Source: Acidobacteriota bacterium | GTDB taxonomy: Bacteria > Acidobacteriota > Holophagae > Holophagales > Holophagaceae | DNA length: 64,000 bases | Assembly (NCBI GenBank): GCA_016192145.1 | Contig: JACPUT010000018.1 | Location: forward strand, 186,001 to 250,000 | Direction of reading: 5' to 3' | Part shown: positions 31,884 to 36,559 of the stretch, in pieces | Position numbering within the stretch: the first letter of the stretch is position 1 | Layout: every line of letters begins with the position of its first letter | Program-made: the position numbers and the translations under genes | Notes under the pieces: model-generated | Databases searched by the model: none | Told to the model about the DNA's origin: nothing | Seen by the model: the letters and a program-made list of their open reading frames with translations, nothing else

Positions 31884-34800
31884 CTAATGTCCGTGAGGCA
31901 TGGGTGATTCCTTGGATGGGGCCACCACCTGCACCCACTTCGCCACGGACGGCACGCCTTGGTCGCTCACGATGAAGAGCATGTAGTAGCCGGGTGGGAC
32001 GAGGTTCGGATTGGCGGGCATCTCCGTGTGGAGGTGGCAGGCGTGGCGGCGGAAGGGGAGGTCGATGAGGCGCTGCTCGCTGTCATAGGAGTGGGTGGTG
32101 GCCATGGGTTTCACGAGGCTGATCCACTTGATCCGCGAGGCATCGGGCGAGTGCACGGCGAATGCGGCGCCCAGGGCGACCTTCTCCGGCGCCCGTTCCA
32201 GGCAGGGGCGAGGGCCCTTGAACAGGTAAGGCGGGTGGTAGATCTCGATGCGCTTCTCATCGTTGCGGCGGCTGGGGTTGGAGCCGGAGGTCAACACGCG
32301 GCCATCGGGCATCAGCAGGGCAATGGAGTGGTACATCCGGGGCACGCGGGCCCGAGCGCCCGTATGCCAGGTGTTCGTCGCGGGGTCGTAGATCTCCGCT
32401 TCGGTGGAAGCGGTCAGGGCATCCTCGGCGATGCCGCTTCCGCCGGTAGCCACCACGGTGCGATCTGGAAGGATGACCGCGTTCACGTGGATGCGGTTGC
32501 GCAGCATGGAGGGGACCTGGACGTAGGTGGGGGAGGGCGCGTCGGTGTCGATGACATGCACCTTGTTGATGCTCGGGCTCCCGCCGCCCATCACCATGAC
32601 CTTCTGGGTCTGGGCAGGGGGAAGTAGCACGGTGGCCCCCTGATCCCGGGCGCCGAAGTTGAAGCTCGCGGGGACCGCCGCCGCGGGCAATGGGGTGTAG
32701 GCCCCCGTGGTGGGGTTGAGGTAGCCCGGGGCCATGCCTGAACCGCCCAGGCGCATGCCCGAATGGAAGACGCGCCCATCCTTCAGGAGGTGAAGGTGGG
32801 GGTAGAGGGGCCAGCCGATGCCGGGCCCCGCGACGCTCCATCCCGTGGGGGCGTCGTAGATTTCGTTCTCAGGCGATCCGCCACCGGAGGTGGCCATGGG
32901 ATGGCCATTCCCCAATCCGATGAGGGTGGGGTACCAGCGGCCGTTCTTCATGGCCTGGACGAAGGTCCACTGTTCGCTGATGGGGTCGAAGATCAGGGAT
33001 GATTTGAGCCCCACGAAGGGATCGTAACGTTCGGTGCCGCCGGCCACGAAGACGGGGCCATCGGGCAGGAAGCATTGGCCGGCGCAGAAGACGTCCGTGG
33101 GCGTGGGCGGCAGGGTGAAACCGCCGTTCTCATAGTCGTACACGGCGCTGCGCAGGCCCGTGGTGTAGAGCTCATCGTTGCCCGAGCCGGCGAAGAACAG
33201 CACCTTGCCGGTGTGCATGAGGGCCGCGTGCACGGTGAGGATGGGGGTCTCGCAGGGCAGCAGCTCCCAGTAGCCCAGCTTCGCTGCCTCCAGCGGATTG
33301 AAGGCGGGTTGGGCTGGAACCTTCATCGGCATGGGCTTGGGTTCCGGCATGGGGTCATGGGGATGGCTCCCGCCATGCACGTGCTCTTCCATCATCATGA
33401 TGTTTTCGGGAATGCCGTCGATCATCGGCCCCATGCCGCTCATGGGGCCCGTTTCCATGCCGTGGGTGTGCGAACCTCCGCCCGTGGAGCCGGGTCGCTG
33501 ATGCGCCTTGAGGCAGCGGCGCAGATCCACCCAGCCGCACTCGGTGCCGCACCCGCAGGTGGGGAGCACGAAGTCGATCTGCTTGAGGATTTCATCAGTG
33601 ATCCAGACCTTCTGCTTGGACCTCACCAGGCCGGCGAGTCCGGCCATCATGTGTTCCTCGATGTGACAGTGGAACAGGAAGTCCCCGCAGAGGGTGATGA
33701 GGCAGGCATCGGGTGGCGGGGTGCAGCACTGGAGCGCTTCCAGCTCGCAGGGCAGGCGAAGGGCGAGGGGGACCTCGGTGTCGAGGATGAAGGTCTCCAC
33801 GGGGCTCAGCCCATGCACGTCACTGGCGCCGGTGGGGGGATGGGGGAATTGCCACCGGGCGGCATGGGGGTGGAAGTTGTGCCACACGCTGCCCACGTCG
33901 AGGTTGAAGAGGTACCAGCGGATGCGATCCCCGGGCTGGCCCGTGATGATGGGGGTGTTGCCAACGTAGGCGCGGCCGTTGAGGCAGTAGGTCTGGTTGC
34001 CGCCACCGCCGGCGAAGACGATGTGCTGATTGGCGCCATTGTTTTTCCAGACCACCTGGGTGCCCGCGGTGACGGTGACATCCGCGGGGGTGAAGGCGTT
34101 GTCCACGATGCTGATGGCGACGGGAGCGCCAGGGCTGCCCGCCACAACCCGGACCCGGCCGTGCATGCTGGCGCCGTGGATGCGGCAGATGTAATCGCAG
34201 GTCTCGCCGGCATCGGGGAAGGTGGTGCTGTAGGTCTGGCCCGTGGAGAGCATGGGGCTCTCGAACTTGCAGTGGTTCATCACGTCGGCCATGGCGTGGA
34301 TGAAGAGGGGGACTTCGTGATCCGCCCGAGGGGCCTTGGGATCGCGCACGACGAGGCCGCCGAAGAGGCCGCGGTTGATGCTGGCCCCGACCATTCGAAC
34401 GTGATCGTGGAAGGGCCAGGCACCGATCATCTCCTCGGTGATGTCGAAGACGTAGGTCCAGCTCTGTCCGGGCAGGATCTCATCGCTCCGGCGCCCATCT
34501 TTGGTGGCGATGCCCCGGGGCCAAGCGCCGTCGGATTCGATGCCATACCGCAGGCCGTGCACGTGCAGGCTGTGGCACTCGTTGGGATCCGCATTGCGCA
34601 CGTGGATGTAGAGCCGCTCACCGGGCTTCGCCCAGAGCACGGCGCCGGGAACGCGGTGATCCCAGGGCGGCTCGGTGGAATCCGAAGGCGCGATGGGCGA
34701 CGTGTTGGGCACCGCGTAGTCAGGATCCAGGTATTCACGGTAGACGAGCGCATCCACCCGGGCCTGAAGGATTTCATCGGAGGGGATGCGCCCCAGGTCA

Positions 34801-34922
34801 TGGCCCTCGTTCAGCTGGCAATCCCGGCCGTATCGCCGGGCGCAGAGGAGGGGGGCCAGGGGGCTGTAGCCGTCGAGGGGTTCGATTTGCAGGAAGATGT
34901 CGCGGCGGGCGCAGTCGGTCAT
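31884..34922 (-). CDS. Multicopper oxidase fused to a glyoxal/galactose-oxidase-type copper-radical oxidase
   Basis: A 1012-residue fusion. Residues about 95-435 form a multicopper oxidase with all four His-x-His elements of the trinuclear site (HVH 120-122, HDH 172-174, HPH 351-353, HCH 418-420) and type 1 ligands His348, Cys419, His424. Embedded are plastocyanin-like segments, one with His217, Cys246, His249, Met253 and another starting FTPADVTVTAGTQVVWKN. Residues 456-533 are a Cys cluster and a Met/His-rich linker. Residues about 555-1003 are a kelch/DUF1929 radical oxidase keeping Cys613 and Tyr664 (the thioether pair), Tyr864-His865 and His944. No signal peptide is visible from ATG 34922 (GGAAAGG upstream), so location is unclear. 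Substrates are unknown. Confidence 0.9.
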   Translation of the reverse strand: MTDCARRDIFLQIEPLDGYSPLAPLLCARRYGRDCQLNEGHDLGRIPSDEILQARVDALVYREYLDPDYAVPNTSPIAPSDSTEPPWDHRVPGAVLWAKPGERLYIHVRNADPNECHSLHVHGLRYGIESDGAWPRGIATKDGRRSDEILPGQSWTYVFDITEEMIGAWPFHDHVRMVGASINRGLFGGLVVRDPKAPRADHEVPLFIHAMADVMNHCKFESPMLSTGQTYSTTFPDAGETCDYICRIHGASMHGRVRVVAGSPGAPVAISIVDNAFTPADVTVTAGTQVVWKNNGANQHIVFAGGGGNQTYCLNGRAYVGNTPIITGQPGDRIRWYLFNLDVGSVWHNFHPHAARWQFPHPPTGASDVHGLSPVETFILDTEVPLALRLPCELEALQCCTPPPDACLITLCGDFLFHCHIEEHMMAGLAGLVRSKQKVWITDEILKQIDFVLPTCGCGTECGWVDLRRCLKAHQRPGSTGGGSHTHGMETGPMSGMGPMIDGIPENIMMMEEHVHGGSHPHDPMPEPKPMPMKVPAQPAFNPLEAAKLGYWELLPCETPILTVHAALMHTGKVLFFAGSGNDELYTTGLRSAVYDYENGGFTLPPTPTDVFCAGQCFLPDGPVFVAGGTERYDPFVGLKSSLIFDPISEQWTFVQAMKNGRWYPTLIGLGNGHPMATSGGGSPENEIYDAPTGWSVAGPGIGWPLYPHLHLLKDGRVFHSGMRLGGSGMAPGYLNPTTGAYTPLPAAAVPASFNFGARDQGATVLLPPAQTQKVMVMGGGSPSINKVHVIDTDAPSPTYVQVPSMLRNRIHVNAVILPDRTVVATGGSGIAEDALTASTEAEIYDPATNTWHTGARARVPRMYHSIALLMPDGRVLTSGSNPSRRNDEKRIEIYHPPYLFKGPRPCLERAPEKVALGAAFAVHSPDASRIKWISLVKPMATTHSYDSEQRLIDLPFRRHACHLHTEMPANPNLVPPGYYMLFIVSDQGVPSVAKWVQVVAPSKESPMPHGH

Positions 34923-35019
34923 GGGGCACCTTTCCAAAAGGGGGGAGTCAGGGCGTGGCCGGCCCCCCCTGGCGGAAGGCGCAGCTCATTCCCATCTCGG
35001 TGGACGATCCGCCTTAAGG

Positions 35020-35151: not shown

Positions 35152-36399
35152 TTAGGGCGTGACGAGCCCATCCATCCGCACCACCTCGAAGGCGCTGCCC
35201 TTCACGGCGCCCAACTCGCTGTTGAGCCTGCCGTTGTCCCACCGGGGATCCGGGGCGCCGCTGATGTACCAGTCGCTGCCGTTGTCGGCCACCATCATGC
35301 CGAAGGTCTTCAGGGCCTGGAGGATGGCCTTGGTTTCCGGCGATTGGCTAGCGGGGATCACGAAGGAGGCTTTCAGCCTTACCCGCATGCCCATGGGGGG
35401 GCGGTTCACGTCCGTGCTGCTGGACGCCCAGTGGGTGGCGGGGGGCACGTAGGCCCGGCGGCTGAGGTTCACGGTGAAGCGCAGGGCGTGGCGGATGGCG
35501 CCGCTGGCGGCCTCCTCGTAACGGACGAGGCCGGGGAAAATGGGCAGGCCCGCGGCGTCGGTGCTCGTCCAGCCCGGCTGGGCCGTGGGGCGCGCCACGA
35601 GGCCGTCCAGGGTGAAGATGGAGCCTCCGCTGGCCTGCCAGCTGCCGTTGGCCTGGGGATAGGCGTTGCCGAGTTCGTAGAGACGGTTGGCGTCGCGGTC
35701 GATGACGAGCACGTGCCGGTCGCCTCCGAAGGCGCTGCCGTCGGCCATCTGGCCTTCGATGGGGGCGTTGGGGGGAACGGGGTAGGGGCCCGGGTCGCTC
35801 TCGTCGGCGTAGGCGCCGAGGGTGATGGGGACCTTGGGCTGGGTGCCCGCCACGACCACGTAGGGGATGCCGATGGGCGCGCCCTGGTACAGGCCGGAAC
35901 CGAAGTCGGGGTGGAGGCCCTTGCTGAGCCCGAGGGTGGCGATGAGGTTGGCGCTGTTGGGATCCACCGGAGCGCCGGAGATGTCCTGGTTCCACGCATT
36001 GGCGGCGGTGAAGGCGATGGCTCCGTTCAGATTGGCGCCTGCGCCGAGGTCAGCGCCGTGGAAATCCCCGAACTTCGGGGCTTGGGTGCCGACGGTGACC
36101 GTCACCGAAGCGGAGGCTTGGCCGCCGGGTCCTTCGGCCACCAGGGTGTAGCCCGTGGTGAGGGTGGGCGCGACCGGGGTGGAGGCGGATGCGATCGCCG
36201 TGCCCTGCAGCTTCAAGGTCGTGGCGCCCGTCACCACCCAGGCCAGGGTGGAGGATTGCCCGGCGGTGATCACGGAGGGCGTGGCCGTGAAACTGGCGAT
36301 CACCGGCTTGGCGGGAGTTGAGTCCGCGGGGTGGGTGCCTCCACCCCCGCCGCAGGCGAGGAACAGGGGCAGGGCCAAGGCGATGCACGGGGGTCGCAT
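35152..36399 (-). CDS. Large lipoprotein, Ig-like N-terminal domain plus unknown domain
   Basis: A 415-residue lipoprotein. The signal ends with lipobox LFLAC followed by a Gly run; then comes an Ig-like/PKD-type beta domain (about 35-115; FTATPSVITAGQSSTLAWVV) and a C-terminal domain of about 280 residues with DRHVLVIDRDANRLYELGNAYP, which I know only as an uncharacterised secreted family. ATG 36399 is chosen for the signal peptide; the ribosome site is weak. It is upstream of, and on the same strand as, the copper-oxidase gene, with a 229-base gap, so joint function is possible but not shown. Confidence 0.75.
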   Translation of the reverse strand: MRPPCIALALPLFLACGGGGGTHPADSTPAKPVIASFTATPSVITAGQSSTLAWVVTGATTLKLQGTAIASASTPVAPTLTTGYTLVAEGPGGQASASVTVTVGTQAPKFGDFHGADLGAGANLNGAIAFTAANAWNQDISGAPVDPNSANLIATLGLSKGLHPDFGSGLYQGAPIGIPYVVVAGTQPKVPITLGAYADESDPGPYPVPPNAPIEGQMADGSAFGGDRHVLVIDRDANRLYELGNAYPQANGSWQASGGSIFTLDGLVARPTAQPGWTSTDAAGLPIFPGLVRYEEAASGAIRHALRFTVNLSRRAYVPPATHWASSSTDVNRPPMGMRVRLKASFVIPASQSPETKAILQALKTFGMMVADNGSDWYISGAPDPRWDNGRLNSELGAVKGSAFEVVRMDGLVTP

Positions 36400-36559
36400 G
36401 GATTCAGGATGGACCGGATCCCGGGGGCAAGAAGGCCTGCCTTCCCACCGGTCCTGAAGGCCGTCCCAGCGGTGGGAAGCCATCAGCCGAACAGGAGGGC
36501 CCAGAGGAGGGAGAAGAACTGTCGCATGTCCCCATCATCGGACGGGACTCGATGGGGGA

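Follow-up and report, generated by a model that had tools for sequence, protein, structure and literature searches.

Does a single reading frame of an Acidobacteriota bacterium hold both a complete multicopper oxidase (MCO) and a complete copper-radical oxidase (CRO), and what could the joining of the two serve? In MCOs single electrons enter at the type 1 copper and O2 is reduced to water. The substrates of CROs are alcohols or aldehydes, which they oxidise with the production of H2O2; a one-electron loss, to an outside oxidant, is first needed for their tyrosyl radical to appear. A peroxidase can provide the one-electron activation on which CROs depend, and in fungi the CRO and peroxidase genes are paired for this purpose (PMC9770985).

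The gene that raises this question lies on the minus strand of the window, the whole stretch of 64,000 nucleotides analysed here. Its features, with the evidence for each, are the following.

31884..34922, minus strand: whole MCO-CRO gene, 1012 aa, composed of MCO, permuted type 1 copper domain and CRO (ORF, Pfam, full-length homologues)
34929..34935, minus strand: Shine-Dalgarno-like GGAAAGG, 6 nt upstream of the MCO-CRO ATG (sequence)
34335..34922, minus strand: N-terminal strand region and MCO domain 1, residues 1-196, with the HxH pairs His120/122 and His172/174 of the trinuclear cluster (Cu-oxidase_3 at 89-196, invariance, predicted strands)
33999..34316, minus strand: circularly permuted amicyanin/plastocyanin-like type 1 copper domain, residues 203-308, with Cys246, His249, Met253 and then His300 (Pfam/NCBIfam, reordered-profile PDB search, invariance)
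33600..33998, minus strand: C-terminal MCO domain, residues 309-441, with His351/353 and His418/420 of the trinuclear cluster, type 1 His348/Cys419/His424 and Leu429 at the axial position (Cu-oxidase_2, invariance)
33297..33512, minus strand: Met/His-rich linker, predicted disordered, residues 471-542 (composition; pLDDT <50 at 474-477 and 479-537)
31914..33275, minus strand: GlxA/galactose-oxidase-like Kelch propeller and early-set domain, residues 550-1003, with Cys613-Tyr664, Trp663, Tyr864, His865 and His944 (Pfam, NCBIfam, PDB, invariance)

Architecture of the MCO-CRO protein

The open reading frame runs from the ATG at 34922 to the stop at 31884-31886 with no internal stop. The single uninterrupted polypeptide of 1012 residues proposed in the earlier note is thus borne out, with the strand refined to minus, and all residues named there are found at their positions. 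The domains and folds expected from it are also recovered: Cu-oxidase_3, Cu-oxidase_2, Copper-bind, Kelch and GO-like_E_set lie above the curated Pfam cut-offs, and both halves fold as expected in a confident AlphaFold2 model (pLDDT 83.9, pTM 0.82) and its Foldseek comparison. All 19 ligands checked, 15 of the MCO and type 1 sites and 4 copper ligands of the CRO half, are invariant across 46 intact family rows, which include the window protein and in which L026 and L045 are near-duplicates; hence their occurrence by chance is excluded. At the level of sequence, the gene is shown to join two O2-reducing copper enzymes in one chain, and it is likely that both sites are competent in the window protein. 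The gene is single-copy in its own genome. The N-terminus of the protein shows neither a visible signal peptide nor a hydrophobic signal sequence, and residues 5-19 form a predicted strand of the fold, so that the protein begins directly with its domain.

The MCO half carries the HxH motif four times along with a type 1 His/Cys/His site, as seen in Pfam, in the sequence and in the 46 intact rows, where the eight cluster histidines and His348/Cys419/His424 do not vary. It is modelled mostly at pLDDT 85-97, lower at 354-368, and is matched in Foldseek by ceruloplasmin, factor V and two-domain MCOs. The laccase, ascorbate oxidase, CueO and CopA models of NCBIfam match it far below their curated cut-offs. 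Two-domain MCOs (PDB 3GDC, small laccases) and ceruloplasmin share with it the four HxH pairs and the type 1 site and align along most of its length, around the permuted domain. Therefore, the simplest description of the MCO half is an MCO of the two-domain type with the permuted domain inserted between its domains. Unlike in the two-domain MCOs and ceruloplasmin, here a permuted type 1 domain separates the MCO domains and the CRO belongs to the same chain.

In this part of the protein the earlier note had seen extra blue-copper-like segments. They are present, but not as separate pieces, since the profile matches belong to one complete circularly permuted type 1 domain. Cys246, His249, Met253 and His300 are invariant in the 46 intact rows, and their order is unusual, with the Cys, His and Met placed ahead of the His, which in ordinary cupredoxins stands N-terminally. 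In the library profiles of amicyanin and plastocyanin it is the C-terminal part of the models that matches residues 204-259, and the N-terminal part that matches residues 276-302. We reordered the family sequences and searched the resulting profile against the PDB, with the native-order profile as a comparison. With the reordered profile the match to amicyanin is collinear and undivided (profile 5-102 on residues 22-104, E 1e-13), whereas the native-order profile finds separate halves only (3-55 on amicyanin 52-104 and 73-99 on plastocyanin 14-42). Hence, residues 203-308 have the ligand set and the profile match of a cupredoxin without its normal strand order, and are circularly permuted. Two half-cupredoxins originating from different barrels are disfavoured, since the reordered profile corresponds to one whole amicyanin and the strands of the model are contiguous. 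All four type 1 ligands are common with amicyanin and plastocyanin, which have the normal order. In the MCO of Nitrosopumilus maritimus (PDB 9CCK), too, an additional type 1 copper domain is tethered to a multicopper enzyme; however, its cupredoxin is C-terminal and not permuted, and it has no radical oxidase. The same swapped-half matching is displayed by a free-standing cupredoxin-like ORF near the homologue in L056.

The Met/His-rich linker, also pointed out in the earlier note, is real, counting 10 Met and 7 His among 70 residues, and is predicted to be disordered. Its length varies highly among the homologues, and it is never lost; His-rich inserts appear at two different places in different clades. 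Being long and disordered, the linker makes an independent action of the halves possible.

In the CRO half PF13964 (Kelch) and PF09118 (GO-like early-set) exceed the Pfam cut-offs. Cys613, Tyr664, Tyr864, His865 and His944 align to the Cys-Tyr pair, the axial Tyr and the two His ligands of GlxA, and Tyr664/Tyr864/His865/His944 are invariant in the 46 intact rows. Foldseek matches this half to GlxA (E 2e-46), which is the nearest solved structure, and to galactose oxidase. The NCBIfam GlxA model covers residues 636-999 at 6e-105, and the cut-off of the GlxA equivalog NF052501 is not reached (351.8 bits vs 800 required). With GlxA of Streptomyces lividans/coelicolor (PDB 4UNM; AA5) the CRO half shares the Kelch propeller and early-set domain, the Tyr-Cys pair, the axial Tyr, the two His and the Trp beside the cross-linked Tyr, where Trp288 of GlxA is assigned to Trp663 on the ground that the aligned column holds Ala in the W288A entries. 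However, GlxA has a signal peptide (PMC3543389), which is not apparent in the window protein, and an insert of ~110 residues between the Cys and the Tyr, which is absent from the window protein, and it lacks the MCO half to which the CRO is fused here.

Distribution of the family and its two classes

We scanned 84,980 species genomes with patterns loosened by artificial variants of the C-terminal MCO motifs in the alignment, and checked every locus by tblastn against the window protein; the pattern search with the window protein alone gave no matches. The scan yields some 49 genuine homologues of the MCO half from seven phyla, namely Pseudomonadota (many of them ammonia oxidisers), Actinomycetota, Acidobacteriota, Myxococcota, Planctomycetota, Nitrospirota and Bacteroidota, and its other loci are large Nitrospira-type MCOs of weak similarity. 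All homologues free of a contig-end cut or a frameshift continue from the MCO into the CRO. The idea that the design is unique to one protein is thus given up, as more than 40 other bacteria from the seven phyla have the same architecture, and a one-off of the window's genome is rejected by the same homologues. The earlier note had further raised the case of many described homologues. Homologues are indeed many, but none of them is described in the open-access full texts, to which the search was confined, and these hold no description of the fusion or of the permuted domain. The component parts are of known kinds, whereas their combination and the permuted domain are undescribed as far as this literature shows.

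The nearer surroundings of the genome were covered as well. Among 100 related genomes and 297 genomes of the phylum no fused homologue is found at the thresholds used, and one relative carries the CRO alone. The plasmid search returns CRO-only or MCO-only matches and no fusion. PF07250 gives no match anywhere in the window's own genome, controls included, and this family model is therefore a poor probe.

The homologue of Variovorax sp. YR216 spans the join with 73% identity on the MCO side and 78% on the CRO side. This homology rules out an assembly join of two genes, and with the fusion present in many independent genomes such an artefact has practically no probability left. The evolutionary distances of the two halves correlate with each other (Mantel r = 0.89, with 0 of 2000 permutations as high), thus the halves have stayed joined. 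In the tree the window protein is sister to Variovorax (support 100/100), and this placement together with the patchy distribution suggests that the gene was probably acquired laterally in the window's genome; the GC content supports neither side.

Some loci depart from the common pattern. In Nitrosospira sp. Nsp11 (L073:6992-9793) the gene is split over several frames, being either a pseudogene or a sequencing error. Two members from MAGs, where sequence errors are possible, have lost copper ligands: in one the last MCO domain lacks its HCH motif (L054:7001-10087), in the other the permuted domain lacks its Cys/His/Met (L053:3047-5989). On a Sinorhizobium meliloti RRI128 plasmid (L108:2061-5045 and L024:3860-6043) a 994-aa ORF has a start that resembles by eye an animal-type heme peroxidase, joined to an MCO, and a separate CRO gene lies ~2.2 kb downstream; this arrangement is an unfused counterpart.

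The family falls into two classes on opposite sides of one branch with the support of 100/100. In class I, to which the window protein belongs, Cys613 and Trp663 are invariant (26/26). Class II has Ser613 and Phe663 throughout and Trp612 in place of Phe, with the copper ligands retained; it is also longer by ~80 residues in the stretch that separates the permuted domain from the first MCO domain, and has in some members an N-terminal transthyretin-like domain just under the Pfam cut-off. Judged from these residues, the Tyr-Cys radical cofactor cannot form in class II. In GlxA without the Cys-Tyr cross-link the unpaired electron shifts to the second-shell Trp, as mentioned in the part of PMC13094651 that cites Chaplin 2017. 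Since class II has neither Cys613 nor Trp663, it would perform either no radical chemistry or a different one. Decay of its CRO half is disfavoured by the invariant copper ligands and by the high conservation, the mean identity within the class being 65% in the CRO half vs 61% in the MCO half. As class II keeps the whole MCO half, the MCO cannot serve only for charging the Tyr-Cys radical. As natural experiments, the permuted blue-copper domain and the class II site, where Cys and Trp are lost together, bear on electron transfer and on whether the Tyr-Cys cofactor is needed.

Fused and neighbouring oxidases in relatives

In the closest homologue, that of Variovorax sp. YR216 (L027:10001-11491), an ORF of 1497 aa comprises MCO, CRO and a LodA-type quinoprotein oxidase (LodA_N, LodA_C). 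One strand of Acidobacteria gp4 AA26 (L034:3-8140) holds a partial MCO with a C-terminal cupredoxin-like part, an MCO-CRO, two tyrosinase-like ORFs (one of the two checked by Pfam), lodA and a second MCO-CRO, which is cut by the contig end. This stand-alone lodA lies directly upstream of an MCO-CRO member and is close to the LodA domain fused in L027 (2.6e-187). Tyrosinase genes are found at distances of up to 7 kb from nine loci (L034, L042, L047, L048, L050, L064, L065, L074 and L075), which represent about five independent settings. From no more than 56 tyrosinase matches in the ~174 Mb of these genomes we estimate that ~0.2 loci would be expected by chance, a rough figure given that the ammonia oxidisers are related to each other. 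Neither lodA nor a tyrosinase gene is present in the window's own genome, and any role of such a module there thus rests on the relatives. No recurrent copper-resistance gene context is seen around the homologues.

Away from the MCO-CRO gene, tyrosinase and LodA-type matches adjoin at G352:C111, G354:C89, G357:C1, G373:C115 and G347:C496. Subtilase and PatG-like (cyanobactin-type) genes stand near the MCO-CRO gene in Nitrosomonas Nm166 (L063:10232-12343) and Nitrosospira Nl5 (L050:2-1580), which may indicate a link to peptide processing.

Proposed function and alternatives

We tentatively favour, at slightly less than even confidence, a soluble bifunctional copper oxidase with a shared substrate, where the MCO half keeps the radical site oxidised. 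The radical half would oxidise an alcohol or aldehyde with the release of H2O2, and the MCO half would draw single electrons via its type 1 coppers and reduce O2 to water. We suggest that the MCO half may be a built-in O2-driven oxidant, making and restoring the Cu(II)-tyrosyl radical by one-electron activation. This would be the most likely reason for the fusion; the MCO-driven activation of the radical half, taken on its own, is rated as somewhat unlikely. An analogy in the way of working is the tandem CRO-AlcOx/peroxidase pair of the fungus Colletotrichum (PMC9770985), in which the CRO is coupled to its activator, a second redox enzyme. However, these are separate secreted proteins and the partner is a heme peroxidase, whereas the window gene has one chain and an O2-driven MCO. 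With a CRO naturally fused to an O2-driven one-electron oxidase, in a design retained by seven phyla and frequent among ammonia oxidisers, CRO activation becomes testable in one protein.

We also suggest that the bifunctional oxidase would act on protein or phenolic material in concert with enzymes of the lysine-oxidase and tyrosinase types, with the oxidation of lysine, tyrosine, aldehyde and phenol. The protein or phenolic target is proposed because of the fused and neighbouring LodA and tyrosinase genes in the relatives, and the chances for and against an oxidative module shared with LodA/tyrosinase chemistry seem to us evenly balanced. The lack of a visible signal peptide leaves the access to an extracellular substrate and the copper loading unaccounted for, which is a point against the proposed function. 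A single-chain redox relay is a doubtful proposition: electrons would pass between the radical site and the trinuclear cluster by way of the permuted domain, so that the MCO makes and maintains the tyrosyl radical or, alternatively, the electrons of the substrate go to water, sparing H2O2, and the class II site, rebuilt without Tyr-Cys (Ser613, Trp612, Phe663), would perform undescribed chemistry.

Alternatively, two independent oxidases may simply be tethered and act on the same substrate mass, in the oxidation or cross-linking of a protein or phenolic polymer or in H2O2-based antagonism, without electrons passing from one to the other. This is a real possibility of lesser weight, nearly as likely as the reading with MCO-driven activation. 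It agrees with the completeness of both halves, with the disordered linker of ~60 residues, and with the LodA-type fusion and neighbours and the tyrosinase neighbours in the relatives. However, the co-retention of the halves in all intact homologues, the conserved extra type 1 domain and a linker that varies in length yet is never lost suggest more than tethering. A tethered pair of an H2O2-making and a phenol-oxidising enzyme could be of use in biocatalysis.

It is improbable that one half is catalytically dead and remains as a binding or structural module. The best candidate for such a loss is the class II CRO half, given its Ser613 and Phe663 and the missing Trp at 663, the residue type to which the radical moves in GlxA lacking the cross-link according to the passage cited in PMC13094651. 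Yet this half is conserved as well as the MCO half, keeps its four copper ligands and shows a coherent Trp612/Phe663 swap, and the window protein belongs to class I.

The probability is equally low that the protein serves to oxidise metals or to handle copper, in which case the MCO half would oxidise Cu(I), Fe(II) or Mn(II) and the His/Met-rich stretches would supply or buffer copper. The linker composition, the His-rich inserts of different clades and the ceruloplasmin-like fold matches are consistent with it, but it leaves the radical oxidase half and the LodA/tyrosinase association unexplained, and neither a recurrent copper-resistance context nor CueO/CopA matches at the curated cut-offs are found.

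The neighbour genes in the window, named by eye as cytochrome c biogenesis, TatD, ThiF-like and regulator genes, give no functional pointer. A lipoprotein-like protein of 443 aa with no Pfam match is encoded at 35152-36483 of the window on the minus strand, the same as that of the MCO-CRO gene, and lies ~230 bp upstream of it.
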